Below are positions 8,511-55,425 of a stretch of DNA of 64,000 bases, one piece after another. The position numbers and the translations under genes were made by a program. Source of the DNA: an uncultured Clostridia bacterium (GTDB lineage: Bacteria > Bacillota > Clostridia > Oscillospirales > Ruminococcaceae); the NCBI GenBank assembly GCA_947627455.1, contig CANQWC010000002.1, positions 62,001-126,000 of the forward strand, in the 5' to 3' direction. The notes under the pieces are model-generated. The model was not told where the DNA came from and did no database searches. It worked only from the letters and a program-made list of their open reading frames with translations. Positions within the stretch are counted from its first letter, which is position 1. Each line of letters starts with the position of its first letter.

Positions 8511-9488
8511 ATGGATCATATAGAAATCGGAAAGGTTAAAATTGAAAGGCTCTGCGCGCTTTCGCCGATGGCTTCGGTTGCCGATCGGGCTTACCGCGAA
8601 ATTTGCCGAGAATTCGGCGCAAGCTATCTTGTCAGCGAGATGGTCTCGGCAAAGGGGCTTTGCTACTCGGGCGCGGGTTCTCTCGAGCTATGCGAGGTTT
8701 ATGACTCGGAGCGGCCCTATGCGATTCAGCTTTTCGGCGAAGAGCCCGAATTCATGGGGCGGGCGGTAGAGATAGTCAACCGCTTTAAGCCCGATATCAT
8801 CGACATAAACATGGGCTGCCCCGTCGCGAAGGTCGTGAACCAAGGCGGCGGAAGCGCCCTCATGAAAACTCCCGAGCTTGCGGCAGAGCTTGTTCGGGCG
8901 GCGGTCTCGGCGGCCGATTGCCCCGTGACGGTGAAATTCCGCTCGGGCTGGGACAGCGAGCATATCAACGCGGCGGAATTCGGCGTGATGATGGAGCAGG
9001 CGGGGGCCTCGGCAATAGCAATTCACCCGAGGACGCGAAACCAAATGTATTCGGACAGGGCCGATTGGGGCGTTATCCGCGAGGTCAAGAAGGCCGTAAA
9101 TGTGCCCGTCATCGGCAACGGCGACATCACAAGCGGCGAAAGCGCCAAGAGAATGTATGACGAAACGGGCTGCGACCTTGTCTCGCTGGCGAGGGGCTCG
9201 AACGGGCGGCCGTGGGTTTTTAAGGAGATAAAGCATTATCTTGAAACGGGCGAGAGCCTTCCCGAGCCGAGCCTTGAAGAGCGGCTTGAGATAATGCTTC
9301 GGCATGTCGACAGGCTCATCGCCTATAAGGGCGAGGCCCAAGGCGTTCGCGAGGCGCGAAAGAATGTTGCGTGGTATTTAAAAGGTATTCGCGGGGCGGC
9401 GGCCTTTCGCAACGAATCGGCGGGGCTTGTCACCCGAGACGACATACTTCGGCTCTGCGGGGAGGTTTTGAAGAGTGCCTCAGAATGA
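8511..9488 (+). CDS. dusB: tRNA-dihydrouridine synthase (DusB family)
   Basis: A 325-residue flavoprotein that reduces uridine to dihydrouridine in the tRNA D-loop with FMN and NADPH. Visible family marks are the start LSPMASVADRAYREICREFG, the catalytic-cysteine loop DINMGCPVAKVV, the FMN/phosphate strand VPVIGNGDI, and the C-terminal helical tRNA-binding domain ending in CGEVLK. I prefer the ATG at 8511, with GAGG upstream. A GTG at 8496 would add five residues. The downstream methyltransferase overlaps it by 14 bp, so they are translationally coupled. This is the first gene of a cluster of translation-related modification enzymes. Confidence 0.93.
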   Translation: MDHIEIGKVKIERLCALSPMASVADRAYREICREFGASYLVSEMVSAKGLCYSGAGSLELCEVYDSERPYAIQLFGEEPEFMGRAVEIVNRFKPDIIDINMGCPVAKVVNQGGGSALMKTPELAAELVRAAVSAADCPVTVKFRSGWDSEHINAAEFGVMMEQAGASAIAIHPRTRNQMYSDRADWGVIREVKKAVNVPVIGNGDITSGESAKRMYDETGCDLVSLARGSNGRPWVFKEIKHYLETGESLPEPSLEERLEIMLRHVDRLIAYKGEAQGVREARKNVAWYLKGIRGAAAFRNESAGLVTRDDILRLCGEVLKSASE

Positions 9489-10185
9489 TGAAATTTCGGT
9501 CGAGGAGCTCGGCGGCGGCTTTAAGGTCGCGATATCGAAGGAGCACCGCTTCGGTACCGACGCTTTTTTGCTGGCCGATTTTGCCGCGCCGAAGCGAAAG
9601 GACAGGTGTCTTGACCTATGCTCGGGCAACGGGATAGTCGGGCTTCTGATGCTTCGGGACTTTCAGCCCGATGAGGTCTGGGCGGCAGAGATTCAGAAAA
9701 GCGCTCACGAGCTTGCGATGATGTCTAAGGAGCTTTCGGGCGCGGGAAATTTTTTCCCGATAAACGCCGATTTAAGGGCTTGGCGGGGCGAGCGTCAGTT
9801 TGACGTTATAACCTGCAACCCGCCCTATAAGCGGGGCGGCACGGGCGCTGAGTCATCGAGCAGGGCGGAGGCCGTCGCGAGGCATGAGATAGAATGCACG
9901 GTCTATGACGTCTGCGAGGCGGCAAAGAGGAATCTTCGGTTCGGCGGGCGGCTTTGCATTTGCAATCGGCCCGAGAGGCTCGCCGACTGCATCGGGGCGA
10001 TGAGGAAAAACGGCATCGAGCCGAAGAGATTAAGAACGGTTCACAAAAACGCCGATTCGGCGGCTTGGCTGATACTCCTTGAGGGGCGGCTCGGCGGCTC
10101 GGGGTTCATGAAGATAGAAAGGCCGCTTTTGGTCCTTGAAAACGGGGAATACTCAAAAGAGATGAAAAGGATATATCGGCTGTAG
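9475..10185 (+). CDS. tRNA1(Val) (adenine-N6)-methyltransferase family (YabB/YfiC, TrmN6-like)
   Basis: A 236-residue class I SAM-dependent methyltransferase. The SAM loop CLDLCSGNGIVG (about 46-57) and the adenine-N6 catalytic motif NPPY (115-118, CNPPYKRGG) identify the YfiC/YabB family, which modifies A37 of tRNA1(Val) in E. coli. It starts with GTG inside the dusB 3' end. No ATG in this frame fits better. In Bacillus the equivalent yabB lies just upstream of yabC (rsmI). Here one flavoprotein gene and a cloverleaf element lie between the two. The exact tRNA substrate in this organism is inferred. Confidence 0.85.
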   Translation: MPQNDEISVEELGGGFKVAISKEHRFGTDAFLLADFAAPKRKDRCLDLCSGNGIVGLLMLRDFQPDEVWAAEIQKSAHELAMMSKELSGAGNFFPINADLRAWRGERQFDVITCNPPYKRGGTGAESSSRAEAVARHEIECTVYDVCEAAKRNLRFGGRLCICNRPERLADCIGAMRKNGIEPKRLRTVHKNADSAAWLILLEGRLGGSGFMKIERPLLVLENGEYSKEMKRIYRL

Positions 10186-10198
10186 CGGGGAATTAAGG

Positions 10199-10298
10199 CG
10201 AGGCGCCCCGCGGCCGCGGCTTCGCCGCGGCCTGTGCGCTTCGGCGAAGCCGAAGCGCACGCCCGCCCGCTCCGCGGGCGGGCGCGGGGCGCCCCCTC
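10199..10298 (+). repeat. four-armed self-complementary (cloverleaf) element 1
   Basis: The gap between two co-directional genes is filled by a perfectly packed cruciform. The outer stem is 10 bp (10202-10211 with 10284-10293), extended by CGAG/CTCG across a small bulge. Arm 1 has 9 bp (10212-10232, loop TTC), arm 2 has 12 bp (10234-10260, loop GAA), and arm 3 has 10 bp (10261-10283, loop TCC). Only T10233 is unpaired at the junction. It is about 90% G+C. No T-run follows, so it is not a standard terminator. See the related element at 12114-12201. Confidence 0.9.
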
Positions 10299-10321
10299 GG
10301 TATAAGACACGGAGGCAGTTT

Positions 10322-10837
10322 ATGGAATTCAGAAAAATGCGGCGCTCGGCTCAGGAGCTCTCCCGAAGCGAGGCTGAAAAGCTTCTTAAAGCCGCTTCGC
10401 ACGGCGTTTTGGCGGTTTCGGGCGATGGCGGTTATCCCTACGCCGTGCCGATGAGCTTTGCGTTTGATGGCGGAAAAATCTACCTTCATTCGGCGGCAGT
10501 CGGCCATAAAATCGAGGCGATAAGGCGCGAGCCGAAGGTCTCGTTTTGCGTTGTAACGCGCGACAGCGTCATTCCCGAGAAATACACCACCGCCTTCGAG
10601 AGCGTCATCGTCTTCGGCAGGGCGGAGATTTTAGAGGGCGATAATGCCCTTGCCGCGATGGAAGCCCTCGCGAAAAAATATCACCCGAACGGCACTCAAA
10701 AAAGCCGCGACGACGAAATCTCGGGCGCGATGGGAAGGTTCTGCGCGATAGCGATAACTCCCGAACACATCAGCGGAAAAATCGGCAGGGAGCTTTTAAA
10801 AGAGGAGGGAAGCCGATGTCGGGAAAACTCTATATAG
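10322..10837 (+). CDS. pyridoxamine 5'-phosphate oxidase-like FMN flavoprotein (NimA type)
   Basis: A 171-residue split-barrel flavoprotein. The pattern MRRSAQELS, GVLAVSGDGGYPYAVPM, IYLHSAAVGHKIEAI and VSFCVVTRD is typical of the NimA/pyridoxamine-phosphate-oxidase-like group that binds FMN. Members include nitroimidazole reductases and many proteins of unknown substrate, so the substrate here cannot be named. A good GGAGG site lies eight bases before the ATG, immediately after cloverleaf element 1. Its 3' end overlaps rsmI by 22 bp, so the two are coupled in translation. It has no evident functional tie to rRNA methylation and may be a passenger in the operon. Confidence 0.85.
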   Translation: MEFRKMRRSAQELSRSEAEKLLKAASHGVLAVSGDGGYPYAVPMSFAFDGGKIYLHSAAVGHKIEAIRREPKVSFCVVTRDSVIPEKYTTAFESVIVFGRAEILEGDNALAAMEALAKKYHPNGTQKSRDDEISGAMGRFCAIAITPEHISGKIGRELLKEEGSRCRENSI

Positions 10838-11655
10838 TCGGCACGCCGATAGGCAACCTCGGCGATATAACTCTGCGGGCGCTTGAGACGCTCAAGGCGG
10901 TCGATTTCATCGCGGCCGAGGACACACGCGTCACCCAGAAGCTTCTTCTTCATTTCGGGATAAAAAAGCCGCTTGTGAGCTATCACGAGCACAACAGAAA
11001 ATATGTCGGCGGCAGCATCGCCGAGAGAATTTTAAGCGGCGAAACCTGCGCCGTAGTCACCGACGCGGGCATGCCCTGCATATCCGACCCCGGGGAAGAC
11101 CTTGTTCGGCTCTGCGCCGAAAGGGGCATACCCGTTGAAGTTGTCCCCGGGCCGAGCGCGGCGGTCTCTGCGCTTGCGATAAGCGGGCTCGACACCTCAA
11201 AATTCGCGTTCGAGGGCTTTTTGTCGACCGCCCCGAGTTCTCGCCGAGAGGCCCTTGAAAAGGCATCGAAAGAAGAGCGCACGCTGATTTTCTATGAGGC
11301 GCCGCACAAGCTTGTCGCTACGCTCGGCGACCTTTACAGGTGCTTCGGCGAGCGAAAAATCTCGATTTGCCGAGAGATGACCAAGCTTCACGAAGAGGTC
11401 ATTCGCACGACGCTTTCGGCGGCGGTGAACCTCTATGACGACGAAAAAAACAAGCCTCGCGGCGAGTTTGTGCTCATCGTCGAGGGCTTTAAGGCCGAGC
11501 AGGAGCCCGAAATTTCTCTTGAAAGCGCGCTCGAAAGGGCAAAGGGCCTTATCGCGGGCGGAACGAAAGCCACCGAGGCCTGCCGCGAAATCGCGAAGAC
11601 GGCGGGCTTTTCAAAGAGCGAGCTCTATTCCGCGCTTCTGGCGGGAAAGGAATAA
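10816..11655 (+). CDS. rsmI: 16S rRNA (cytidine1402-2'-O)-methyltransferase
   Basis: A 279-residue tetrapyrrole-methylase-fold enzyme that methylates the ribose of C1402 in the ribosomal P site. Family marks are LYIVGTPIGNLGDITLRAL at the start, DFIAAEDTRVTQKLL, SYHEHN, VTDAGMPCISDPG (about 76-88) and VPGPSAAVSALAISGL, then a C-terminal helical region that normally aids RNA binding. The ATG follows GAGGAGGG inside the end of the flavoprotein gene. The stop codon is directly followed by the next ATG at 11656, so it is tightly coupled to rimI. Confidence 0.95.
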   Translation: MSGKLYIVGTPIGNLGDITLRALETLKAVDFIAAEDTRVTQKLLLHFGIKKPLVSYHEHNRKYVGGSIAERILSGETCAVVTDAGMPCISDPGEDLVRLCAERGIPVEVVPGPSAAVSALAISGLDTSKFAFEGFLSTAPSSRREALEKASKEERTLIFYEAPHKLVATLGDLYRCFGERKISICREMTKLHEEVIRTTLSAAVNLYDDEKNKPRGEFVLIVEGFKAEQEPEISLESALERAKGLIAGGTKATEACREIAKTAGFSKSELYSALLAGKE

Positions 11656-12111
11656 ATGGACATAATAAGAAAAATGACCGTCGCCGACGTCGACGGCGTG
11701 TGCGCCATCGAGCGGGAATGTTTCACTTCCGAGGCGTGGCCCCGCGAAGATTTTGAAGCCCTCTGCGGCGATTTCGGCGAGGTTTATACCGCGCTGGTCT
11801 ACCTCTGCGGCGGCGAGGTAAAGGGCTATATCGCGGGGAGCAGCGTTTTGGGCGAGCTTGAAATTTTCTCCGTCGCGGTCGACAAAACATTTCGGCGGCG
11901 GGGCGTCGCAAAAGCCTTAATCGCTGAGCTTGAGCGCCTTGAAGCCCCCGAGACAGCCTATCTTGAAGTTCGCGAATCGAACGCCCCCGCACGGAGCTTA
12001 TACGCGTCGCTCGGGTTTAAAGAATACGGGCGGAGACAGAGCTATTACAGCTCGCCCGAGGAAGACGCGGTGCTCATGAGAAAGGAATACAACGGCTCGG
12101 GCGAGCTGTAA
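11656..12111 (+). CDS. rimI: ribosomal protein alanine N-acetyltransferase (GNAT family)
   Basis: A 151-residue GNAT acetyltransferase. The acetyl-CoA pyrophosphate loop RRRGVAKALI lies at about 80-89 after the strand IFSVAVD, and YLEVRESNAPARSLYASLGF is the RimI-like C-terminal half that precedes the catalytic tyrosine region. RimI acetylates the N-terminal alanine of ribosomal protein S18. Placement just before tsaD is the common Firmicutes arrangement (often tsaE-tsaB-rimI-tsaD), which supports the assignment. tsaE and tsaB are absent here. There is no gap to rsmI upstream, and cloverleaf element 2 follows immediately. Confidence 0.88.
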   Translation: MDIIRKMTVADVDGVCAIERECFTSEAWPREDFEALCGDFGEVYTALVYLCGGEVKGYIAGSSVLGELEIFSVAVDKTFRRRGVAKALIAELERLEAPETAYLEVRESNAPARSLYASLGFKEYGRRQSYYSSPEEDAVLMRKEYNGSGEL

Positions 12112-12113
12112 AC

Positions 12114-12201
12114 GGGGCAAAGCCCGAACCGCTGACGCGGTTCCCGCGCCGCTTCGCGGCGCGGCACGGCGGGCCGCAGGCCCGCCGTGGGGCTTCGCCC
12201 C
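12114..12201 (+). repeat. four-armed self-complementary (cloverleaf) element 2
   Basis: Starts 3 bp after the rimI stop. The outer stem is 12 positions (12114-12125 with 12190-12201, one A-C mismatch). Arm 1 has 7 bp (12126-12143, loop TGAC), arm 2 has 9 bp (12144-12164, loop TTC), and arm 3 has 11 bp (12165-12189, loop GCA). Every base outside the three loops and the single mismatch is paired. The arms share no sequence with element 1 at 10199-10298, yet the geometry is the same. A small CGCC/GGCG hairpin follows at 12203-12212. Confidence 0.92.
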
Positions 12202-12242
12202 TCGCCAAGGCGCCATCTTACCACATTGAAAGAAGTGATCAC

Positions 12243-13274
12243 TTGAAAATTTTAGCGATTGAATCCTCCTGCGACGAGACCGCAGCGTCGGTTGTCGAGG
12301 ACGGCAGAAAGGTCCTTTCGGATATCGTCGCCTCTCAGGTCGAAGAGCACAAGCTCTACGGCGGCGTTGTGCCCGAGATCGCCTCGCGAAGACATATCGA
12401 GAGTATCAGCGGCGTTGTTTCCGAGGCTCTTTCCGAGGCAAACCTCGGCTTTGACGGCATCGACGCCGTCGCCGTGACCTATGCCCCGGGGCTCATCGGC
12501 GCGCTGCTTGTCGGCGTAAGCTATGCCAAGGGCCTCGCGATGATGACCGAGAAACCCCTTGTGCCCGTTCACCACATCGCGGGGCATATCGCCGCGAATT
12601 ACATCACCCACCCCGACCTCGAGCCGCCGTTTTTGTGCCTTGTCGTGAGCGGAGGGCATAGCCACATCGTCGAGGTAAAAAGCTATACCGAATATCGGGT
12701 GATCGGCCGAACCCGCGACGACGCGGCGGGCGAGTGCTTCGACAAGGTCGCAAGGGTGCTCGGCTTCCCCTACCCCGGGGGAAAATACATCGACGAGGCG
12801 GCCAAGCGCGGCAGAAAAACCGCTTACAGCTTCACCCACCCGAAGCTCTCGGGCTGCGAGTACGACTTCTCGTTCTCGGGGCTGAAAACCGCGGTGATAA
12901 ACCTTGTTCACACCGCCTCTCAGCGCGGCGAAACCGTTTCGGCCGATGACCTTGCGGCGTCGTTTCAGAAGACCGTCGCCGATATTCTGGGTGAAAAGCT
13001 CTTCGCGGCGGCAAAGGCCCTCGGCAGCAAAAAGCTTGTTATCGCGGGGGGCGTCTCGGCGAATTCGGGCATTCGCGAGAAGATGAAAAAGGTTGCCGAT
13101 TCCCTCGGGGCGGCGCTCTACATGCCCGAGCTGAAATACTGCGGCGACAATGCCGCGATGATAGGCGCTCAGGCGTATTATGATTTTCTTGCGGGTCGGC
13201 GGGCCGATGAATCGCTCAACGCCGCGGCGACCCTTTCGCTTGAAGACATCTCAACAGAATTCGGGAGGCAGTGA
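12243..13274 (+). CDS. tsaD: tRNA N6-adenosine threonylcarbamoyltransferase
   Basis: A 343-residue ASKHA-fold enzyme that transfers threonylcarbamoyl onto A37 of ANN-decoding tRNAs (t6A) with TsaB and TsaE. It begins ILAIESSCDETAAS, the family signature. The metal ligands H111 and H115 lie in VHHIAGH. The later blocks VVSGGHSHIVEV, DDAAGECFDKVAR, GGVSANSGIR and YCGDNAAMIG are all present, so it looks intact. I start it at the TTG at 12243, because the signature lies only five residues in and no ATG is available. The TTG start and weak ribosome site suggest modest translation. Its stop overlaps the next start as TGATG. TrmO at 52.1-52.8 kb would act on the t6A product. Confidence 0.96.
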   Translation: MKILAIESSCDETAASVVEDGRKVLSDIVASQVEEHKLYGGVVPEIASRRHIESISGVVSEALSEANLGFDGIDAVAVTYAPGLIGALLVGVSYAKGLAMMTEKPLVPVHHIAGHIAANYITHPDLEPPFLCLVVSGGHSHIVEVKSYTEYRVIGRTRDDAAGECFDKVARVLGFPYPGGKYIDEAAKRGRKTAYSFTHPKLSGCEYDFSFSGLKTAVINLVHTASQRGETVSADDLAASFQKTVADILGEKLFAAAKALGSKKLVIAGGVSANSGIREKMKKVADSLGAALYMPELKYCGDNAAMIGAQAYYDFLAGRRADESLNAAATLSLEDISTEFGRQ

Positions 13275-14167
13275 TGAAGAGAATATCAGGAATTTTTGCG
13301 GTGATAATTTCGGCGGCGCTGCTTCTCTGCTCATGCGGAAAGACCATCGACCCGCCGCCGCTCGTCAGCGAGGCCGAAAAGACCGACCTTCCGCCGATCA
13401 AAGAGCCCTACCCCGTCAGCTTTGACGATGAAACCTTCGAGGCGTCGCCGATGCGTGTGGTCTCGCTTTCGCCCGCGCTGACCGAAATCATGGCCGACCT
13501 CGGGCTTTTCGACAGGCTCTGCGCGGTGAGCGATTATTGCGACTACCCCGAAGCCGCCGCTTCACTCACAAAGGCGGGAAGTCCCGCCTCGCCCGACATC
13601 GACGGAATAATCTCCCTCTCGCCCGAGCTTGTGATAACAATGTCCCCGATAGCCTCGACCGACCTTATTCTTTTAAGGCAGGCGGGCGCGCGGGTGCTTG
13701 AAATTTCCCCGCCGCAAAGCTTTGCGGGGCTCTGCGAGATATATATTAAACTGTCGATGCTCTTTTACGGCGCTGTCGATTTTCAGGCCGTCGCCGAGGG
13801 GTCGCTCTCGGGGCTTGATTCCGCGATGAGCGCGGCGTCCGAGCTCGGAATTAGCCGAAGCTTTGTCATCGCCGAGGGCGAATGCGAGGGCGGGCTTCTG
13901 CTCTCAAACGGGGCGGCGTTCTGTTCGTCGGTGCTGTCGGTGTTCGGCTATAATTTAAGGCTCGCGACCGACCCGTTCACCGCGACCGAGGACGAGCTCT
14001 TTGAGCTTGCGCCCGACATCGTATTCTATTCCGACGAAATCGACCGCGACAGAATCAGCGAGGAATTCCCACACTCCGAGCTTGTGCCGATAGACTTTGA
14101 AAGGTTCGAGCGCCCGACGGCGCGAATCGCCGAGGTCGTGAACGGCTGCACCGAAAGGCTCAGATAA
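13274..14167 (+). CDS. BtuF/FhuD-like periplasmic-binding-protein-fold lipoprotein
   Basis: A 297-residue lipoprotein (signal peptide, LLLCSCG lipobox) with the helical-backbone binding-protein fold of vitamin B12, haem and siderophore ABC systems (RVVSLSPALTEIMADLGLFDRLCAVSDYCDYP and SPELVITMSP). The signal DIDGIISLSPELV is typical of this family. No permease or ATPase is adjacent. It overlaps tsaD as TGATG, with GGGAGG upstream, so it is co-translated with a tRNA-modification gene. Ligand unknown: corrinoid, iron-siderophore or haem are options. It could also be a binding-protein-like protein without a transporter. Confidence 0.78.
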   Translation: MKRISGIFAVIISAALLLCSCGKTIDPPPLVSEAEKTDLPPIKEPYPVSFDDETFEASPMRVVSLSPALTEIMADLGLFDRLCAVSDYCDYPEAAASLTKAGSPASPDIDGIISLSPELVITMSPIASTDLILLRQAGARVLEISPPQSFAGLCEIYIKLSMLFYGAVDFQAVAEGSLSGLDSAMSAASELGISRSFVIAEGECEGGLLLSNGAAFCSSVLSVFGYNLRLATDPFTATEDELFELAPDIVFYSDEIDRDRISEEFPHSELVPIDFERFERPTARIAEVVNGCTERLR

Positions 14168-49093: not shown

Positions 49094-49215
49094 GGAGTGT
49101 CCATTCTGCACGCATTATTAGAAATATTCAGATATGTCGCCGCAGGCGACACCTTGAAATTCTGACATCTGACCTCTAATTTCTGTCTTCTTGATGTGGC
49201 CGTTTCGGCCACATC
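49094..49215 (+). repeat. 122-bp dispersed element, copy 1
   Basis: Matches the reverse complement of 55304-55425 over about 122 bp. Shared parts are GTGCGTGC-like left end, the palindrome GTCGCC-GCA-GGCGAC followed by ACCTTGAAA, pyrimidine-rich heptamers, TTTCTGTYTTCTTGATGTGG, and the end hairpin GATGTGGCCG/CGGCCACATC (49193-49215). It lies between a minus-strand lipoprotein gene and the acyl-CoA ligase promoter. No open frame. Confidence 0.85.
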
Positions 49216-55271: not shown

Positions 55272-55302
55272 CCCCCTGCCGACCAAGCAGGGGGCGTTTT
55301 CT
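55272..55302 (+). terminator. terminator
   Basis: 8-bp stem CCCCCTGC/GCAGGGGG with a 7-nt loop and TTTT tail. The dispersed element at 55304 begins right after it. Confidence 0.85.
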
Positions 55303-55303
55303 T

Positions 55304-55425
55304 GATGTGGCCTAAGCGGCCACATCAAGAAAACAGAAGTTAGAAGTCAGAGGTCAGAGTTTCAAGGTGTCGCCTGCGGCGACGGTTTTAAATGCCGAGG
55401 ATAACGCGTGCGGAACGGGCACTCT
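55304..55425 (-). repeat. 122-bp dispersed element, copy 2 (inverted relative to copy 1)
   Basis: Reverse-complement match of 49094-49215. It begins with the hairpin GATGTGGCC-TAAGC-GGCCACATC (55304-55326), then four heptamers (55335-55362), TTTCAAGGTGTCGCC-GCGGCGAC, and CGTGCGGAACGGGCACTC. It lies between a terminator and the 3' end of tatD, so both ends are outside genes. Confidence 0.85.

Follow-up and report, generated by a model that had tools for sequence, protein, structure and literature searches.

The window analysed here is the 64,000-nucleotide (nt) stretch of contig CANQWC010000002.1 (assembly GCA_947627455.1, positions 62,001 to 126,000) from an uncultured Clostridia bacterium of the family Ruminococcaceae, and it contains two cloverleaf-shaped elements, each consisting of three hairpin arms on an outer stem that meet at a four-way junction. 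They lie in a gene cluster whose proteins match the Pfam families Dus, MTS, Pyridox_ox_2/PNPOx_N, TP_methylase, GNAT, and TsaD, where they fill intergenic gaps of 136 nt (element 1) and 131 nt (element 2). Comparison with related genomes indicates that both belong to a family of which the fold, rather than the sequence, seems to be kept. The elements, their parts, and the adjoining genes are listed below; the names trmN6 and rimI are those we presume to apply to genes for which the Pfam evidence is MTS and GNAT, respectively.

9475..10185, + strand: trmN6-like methyltransferase (Pfam MTS)
10202..10293, no strand assigned: element 1, whole; outer stem and three arms in the gap separating the trmN6-like gene from the flavoprotein gene, from folding of both strands and script
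10202..10211, + strand: element 1, outer stem, 5' strand; 10 base pairs (bp), paired with 10284-10293
10212..10232, + strand: element 1, arm 1; 9 bp, loop TTC by script (GAA in the orthologous element of genome G024)
10234..10260, + strand: element 1, arm 2; 12 bp, loop GAA; 10233 is the sole unpaired junction base
10261..10283, + strand: element 1, arm 3; 10 bp, loop TCC
10284..10293, + strand: element 1, outer stem, 3' strand
10322..10837, + strand: PNPOx-like flavoprotein (Pfam Pyridox_ox_2/PNPOx_N)
11656..12111, + strand: rimI-like GNAT acetyltransferase (Pfam GNAT)
12114..12201, no strand assigned: element 2, whole; outer stem and three arms in the gap separating the rimI-like gene from tsaD, from folding of both strands and script
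12114..12125, + strand: element 2, outer stem, 5' strand; 12 positions with one mismatch, paired with 12190-12201
12126..12143, + strand: element 2, arm 1; 7 bp, loop TGAC
12144..12164, + strand: element 2, arm 2; 9 bp, loop TTC
12165..12189, + strand: element 2, arm 3; 11 bp, loop GCA
12190..12201, + strand: element 2, outer stem, 3' strand
12243..13274, + strand: tsaD (Pfam TsaD)

The coordinates and geometry first claimed for both elements in the initial annotation were reproduced by script and by folding on both strands, the script finding zero unpaired junction bases in element 2. With short flanks included, RNA folding z-scores against dinucleotide shuffles were -8.3 (+ strand) and -9.5 (- strand) for element 1 and -5.9 (+) and -6.9 (-) for element 2, and DNA folding of the elements without flanks gave -7.3/-8.6 and -7.1/-8.2, respectively; none of 200 shuffles folded equally well in any RNA or DNA test of either element. 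A hairpin scan of the window revealed no further three-hairpin cluster. No terminator-like site (a hairpin followed by a T-run) was present on either element, in keeping with the absence of a terminator noted at the outset, and a search of positions 9000-14000 with the Rfam 15 covariance models returned 0 matches at E-values up to 1.

Relatives were sought with a script that detects adjacent hairpins enclosed by an outer stem. In the 464 kb of the source genome (G000) that were scanned, six high-scoring elements were identified, namely the two in the window, L040:12804-12888, L044:5895-6010 (in which the strands of the outer stem fold on themselves, mimicking five arms), L051:545-637, and L052:12341-12428; pattern and model searches added L331, L343, and L344, giving a total of nine for the genome. 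Across 1,651,036 bases from 12 genomes the script found 23 real matches with a score of at least 28, compared with one two-armed match of score 16 in a single realisation of a first-order Markov control over the same bases. A covariance model (R1) proved insensitive, with four rows in G000 and none in G024, and counts therefore rest on the script and patterns. The source genome also carries other palindromic repeats. One is a two-arm repeat, similar in sequence in both of its copies (L036:14329-14376 and L043:18870-18919) and unlike the cloverleaves, which stands among other recurring hairpins in several stretches (for example, with the arms CCAAAGGGC and CGCAGCTCT); hairpins carrying GATGTGGCCG as an arm lie in the window at 49193-49215 and 55296-55334 and recur in L035, L037, L040, L051, and L052.

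Judged by these searches, the family is patchily distributed by clade. The 31 genomes of the genus divide by their purB-like protein into a near group of 14 (G000 and G017-G029, with G028 placed by a purB fragment) and a far group of 17 (G001-G016 and G030, 16 of them with lower purB identity and G005, which has no purB match, placed by rsmI). Three-arm elements are present in 13 of the 14 near-group genomes, none being found in G018 in 100 kb, at two loci, or by model, and are missing in the far group from 287 kb of four genomes and from the rsmI loci of 16 of the 17. Model matches examined in far-group genomes G016 and G015 are two-arm palindromes of 48-52 nt (L133, L134, and L142), possibly a relative form or a chance likeness, and a further 78 rsmI loci from named records contained zero three-arm elements and one two-arm match. 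In the rimI-tsaD gap of G024 (L005) stands an altered element with two arms, one of them 15 bp long, a position at which G000 and G019 are three-armed. The exact outer-stem pattern of the genus occurs 191 times in G027 (arms were checked for part of these matches), 13 times in G019, 6 times in G023, and 3 times each in G000 and G024, and is missing from 390 of the 395 genomes in the Ruminococcaceae set, which includes 7 of the genus itself; the reversed control gave 0. A second genus of the same family (labelled g16) has another outer stem, the pattern of which is present in 6 of 60 genomes, including G718, where no cloverleaf was detected by the script. One more three-arm element comes from another family of the order (L352 of G615), and an order-wide model search with strict filters retained 3 of 295 genomes, the source genome included. 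Viruses were rejected as carriers: three viral contigs match the outer-stem pattern, yet the script finds no cloverleaf in the stretches examined.

Geometry is nearly constant throughout the family. Outside G027, 68 of 70 multi-arm matches have three arms and the other two have two; the 68 represent as many different sequences, some mutually orthologous, with a mean length of 86 bp (range 71-112), a mean outer stem of 11.0 bp, mean arm lengths of 8.5, 9.3, and 8.8 bp, and 0, 1, or 2-7 unpaired junction bases in 25, 16, and 27 elements, respectively. All 33 elements of the second genus (taken from G670, G693, G232, G045, and G701, and partly orthologous) are three-armed and 31 are free of unpaired junction bases, with arms ranging from 10% to 91% guanine plus cytosine (GC); in L357 the shape is retained though two arms consist almost entirely of A and T. 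It is important to note that the script's selection favours good pairing. Of elements taken by outer stem with no arm filter (G670, G693, and G232), 30 of 36 pass the script, and by reading five of the remaining six are three-armed with small faults and one has a lost stretch; in G027, 31 of 3577 pair cells are not Watson-Crick (105 rows, some copies being present in both orientations). Given that the same shape recurs with different letters in relatives, the fold rather than the sequence seems to be kept across the family, as the initial annotation had proposed for the two elements in the window: relatives maintain the four-arm pairing with changed arm bases, their arms being either unrelated or recombined.

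At the level of sequence, the family itself, its geometry, and the class of its loops are established. The explanation we favour, and consider reasonably probable, is that both window features belong to a family of non-coding, dispersed chromosomal DNA elements that would act as folded DNA, keep their shape, and spread as a unit.

The loops bear on whether DNA or RNA is the folded molecule. C:G-closed GNA triloops, written C(GNA)G, together with the complementary TNC form account for 148 of 181 triloops outside G027 and 250 of 259 in G027, compared with 36 GNA/TNC loops among 238 other triloop hairpins sampled from the source genome; the C:G-closed GNA type makes up 74 of 99 loops in the second genus when both strands are counted, and ANA/TNT loops contribute 20 more. 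For the hairpin promoters of phage N4, the closing pair and these loop bases are required for supercoil-driven extrusion, according to PMC4496689. The main rival, which we regard as unlikely, is an RNA-level operon element in which a stable branched fold of the transcript would set mRNA processing, stability, or read-through. It would account for the position of both window elements within a co-directional cluster, for the 26 co-directional placements among the 37 elements called outside G027 (with 4 divergent, 2 convergent, 5 inside an open reading frame (ORF), and 17 more at sequence edges), and for retention at purA-purB and other sites with stems kept. However, loops on the transcribed strand of co-directional genes are GNA in 34 cases and TNC in 28, which indicates no strand preference, and loop orientation switches freely; convergent placements in G027 (17) equal co-directional ones (16, with 2 divergent, 8 inside ORFs, and 50 at edges); and wobble is little preferred, G-T/T-G pairs contributing 12 and A-C/C-A pairs 8 of the 31 non-Watson-Crick pairs in that genome. 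These contexts were called with a crude ORF caller, the same that placed 5 and 8 elements inside ORFs. The biology looks DNA-level.

Comparison of related copies indicates that loops and one whole element have been inverted. In the commonest arm set of G027 (56 copies), the middle loop is GAA in 23 and TTC in 21 on the same stem, and the side loops show no orientation switch in any of the 56. Between orthologues, the loop of arm 1 at the trmN6-flavoprotein locus differs as TTC/GAA (G000 versus G024), as does one arm at a phoU-phoB-like locus that is 90% identical over 3.57 kb (G000 versus G023), and the loop of arm 3 differs as TTT/AAA between G693 and G232 at a locus 95.2% identical over 1.67 kb. 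The element of L356/L370 is inverted as a whole, being 100% identical once turned, with flanks 98.2% and 92.6% identical, and the related arm sets of L006 and L008 run in opposite orders next to a similar 3' flank. A restriction of inversion to arms of at least 9 bp was rejected on finding a 7-bp arm inverted between L354 and L372. A separate observation concerns the pst/pho-like locus (L330/L331), where G023 and G000 are 90% identical, compared with 71% for their RsmI proteins; the contrast suggests that this segment was recently exchanged between them.

Twelve hand-picked orthologous pairs passing a pairing filter allowed loops, stems, and flanks to be compared. Loops changed in 16 of 36 cases, among them 4 exact inversions and 3 orientation switches, more than flank divergence (8.7%) would lead one to expect (P 0.0055), and 0 of 335 arm pairs changed in 11 of the pairs, the twelfth having a shifted register in one arm. 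Outer-stem differences in this comparison, being shifted registers, were set aside; 3 of 13 candidate pairings were also left out (two mismatched tandem neighbours and one duplicate of L356/L370). Helix scoring discriminated orthology weakly (a mean of 27 identical pairs in non-orthologous controls, compared with 27-39 in orthologues); orthology was therefore judged by position and by exact shared arms. In 14 pairs without the pairing filter, some of which share a member, alignments read by eye contained three stem changes, each on one side only, together with a single long deletion and a single 15-nt insertion; two-sided changes were absent there and appear at greater distance, two at rimI-tsaD (G000/G019) and five at purA-purB (G000/G024).

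These comparisons also bear on a second rival, that the elements are a passive product of template switching during replication, which would make palindromes and keep them perfect by mutation with neither mobility nor function. Strand switching at quasipalindromes gives rise to paired changes and loop inversion, as described in PMC8794818, and the exact inversions together with the excess of loop change are the footprint it would leave. It is, however, a mutation process and does not determine the number of arms, the outer stem, or how many copies there are, and it leaves exactly three arms, an outer stem shared by the genus, and the abundance of outer-stem matches in G027 unexplained. Moreover, arm pairs change more slowly than flanks in the filtered and unfiltered pairs alike, contrary to our own expectation that template switching would let stem pairs change at a neutral rate. 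Since arm number, the shared outer stem, and slow stems are left unexplained, a further constraint would be needed, either selection or a moving process, and we judge template switching by itself to be improbable.

Least credible of all, to the point of being nearly negligible, is an ordinary GC-rich spacer, a terminator, or a tRNA-like RNA tied to RNA-modification genes, for which the adjoining tRNA and rRNA modification genes in the window speak, but against which stand the lack of any terminator-like site, the almost empty Markov control, the absence of an Rfam match, the persistence of the shape with arms of 10% GC (L357), and the position of other members between purA-/purB-like, phoU-/phoB-like, and further gene pairs (named outside the window from translations, with no family search). 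Because the family also adjoins unrelated genes, the tRNA mimicry and the link to enzymes acting on tRNA or rRNA that the initial annotation had entertained were rejected; its other proposal, a dispersed palindromic element shaped like a Holliday junction, remains the best reading.

When arms are distinguished by six loop-near pairs, the 95 elements of G027 draw on 33 arms in 26 combinations; 17 of these arms occur in more than one combination, which shows that arms have been re-used in new combinations. Identical 77-nt copies in this genome have flanks that differ right up to the outer stem, and so show amplification with differing flanks. Elements are also retained at orthologous sites, four genomes sharing the middle arm at purA-purB, where the flanks hardly align. 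A flanking repeat of G027 containing GTTGGTCGCACAGAGG (e.g. L231, L234, and L256) adjoins a cloverleaf end in 16 of the 16 matches found, and a second repeat (CTTCTGCTCCTATC) adjoins many other cloverleaves. A 3' flank motif was also seen close to some elements.

Several observations weigh against spread as a folded, mobile unit. Many G027 copies sit within larger repeats, so part of the spread may be of those repeats. There is no sign of target duplication, a direct repeat of at least 3 nt at both ends being present in 1 of 54 and 0 of 94 elements (2.0 and 3.2 expected by re-pairing), and no clean empty site was found between near-identical strains; the best case, at purA-purB, aligns with the filled site at 72% identity and weakly in the middle, and element-free genomes have mostly short gaps or overlapping genes at the same sites. 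L356/L370 shows a second, weaker flank alignment in the opposite orientation (184 and 166 nt), and the genomes with inversion are drafts, in which an assembler could have wrongly turned palindromic arms shorter than its word. Stems are less changeable than flanks; this and the purA-purB element shared by four genomes suggest that a role is under selection in addition to any selfish spread. Y1 transposase (PF01797) is absent from G000 and from G693, which has 26 matches to a shorter outer-stem pattern; it is present in some carriers, where the loci examined hold no three-arm element, and its candidacy as partner is not supported. Reverse transcriptases show no correlation with the elements. Beside the G027 copies there is no repeated gene except translated repeats, which the two larger protein clusters resemble, and a few host-like proteins, and these flanks hold no repeated transposase-like gene that might be the autonomous partner of a miniature inverted-repeat transposable element (MITE). 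Among side observations, G022 has ten Y1_Tnp matches, some partial, and IS200-like hairpin ends of sequence unrelated to the cloverleaves occur in loci read from G024 and G027.

Integron attC sites are recognised as folded single-stranded DNA, with structure kept more than sequence, and are tied to an integrase and gene cassettes; the cloverleaf family is likened to them in structure being kept over sequence, and no integrase or gene cassette was seen with it, although no search aimed at these was made. The elements resemble MITEs in having terminal inverted repeats, here the outer stem (mean 11 bp), and differ from them in showing no target-site duplication. Repetitive extragenic palindromic (REP) sequences, bacterial interspersed mosaic elements (BIMEs), and REP doublets forming hairpins (REPINs) (also the subject of PMC3116915 and PMC2817692) are likewise dispersed, non-coding, intergenic palindromes of bacteria that are numerous in some genomes; those associated with REP-associated tyrosine transposases (RAYTs) are, according to PMC3733652, single palindromes of 20-40 bp with a GTAG or CGTC tag. 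Unlike REPs and REPINs, the present elements span 71-112 bp and have three arms on an outer stem with no common arm sequence; such a tag or its complement lies at most 6 nt from the outer stem in 2 elements out of 54 and in 3 out of 94 (6 and 2 in nearby background windows), and RAYT-type Y1 transposase is, as noted, lacking in G000 and G693. Mitochondrial double-hairpin and repetitive hairpin-forming elements are alike in spreading as hairpins with kept stems, variable loops, and multiple-hairpin forms; they differ in being organellar and having no fixed three-arm four-way junction, and the C(GNA)G rule and arm exchange are not described in the part of PMC2800124 that treats them. Phage N4 virion RNA polymerase promoters are likewise short hairpins in which a C:G pair closes a G...A loop, yet they are single hairpins with conserved stem bases, extruded by supercoiling (PMC4496689), in contrast to three arms of free sequence here. 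Literature searches, which covered few subscription journals and no bioRxiv preprints, listed no description of such an element.

Under the explanation of shape-keeping, folded DNA elements, an element would form a cruciform by extrusion when the DNA is supercoiled, or its single strand would fold at the replication fork. Strand switching across the folded arms could then invert loops, arms, and whole elements with pairing kept, arms could be exchanged between copies while pairing stays, and copies would spread whole, with the outer stem as their boundary and no gene of their own. The four-way junction formed in the cell may undergo strand switching at the replication fork or be acted on by junction enzymes, and the mobilising enzyme may be host or foreign. 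Extrusion-favouring loops, inversions, arm exchange, and a fixed junction fit the formation of such a junction in the cell; we infer that elements extrude in vivo, that strand switching caused the inversions and transposition the spread, and that an enzyme, host or foreign, is used. More tentatively, and with clear reservations, we suggest that the family could be mobile inherited DNA identified by its fold: any three C(GNA)G-capped hairpins in a genus-specific outer stem, moved or copied through a folded single strand, with interchangeable and invertible arms, and with either an unknown transposase or a host enzyme recognising four-way junctions as partner.

Bacterial repeats are usually defined by sequence, yet here copies in the same genome share no arm sequence, and almost every multi-arm match forms the same four-way cross, capped by the class of loop known to extrude under supercoiling. 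Inversions of loops and elements recorded in orthologues and near-identical copies would reflect cruciform folding inside the cell, which is hard to prove otherwise and becomes testable by sequence comparison. The elements would also provide junction-binding proteins with a ready collection of natural substrates, and would allow the survival and spread of palindromes to be put to the test.

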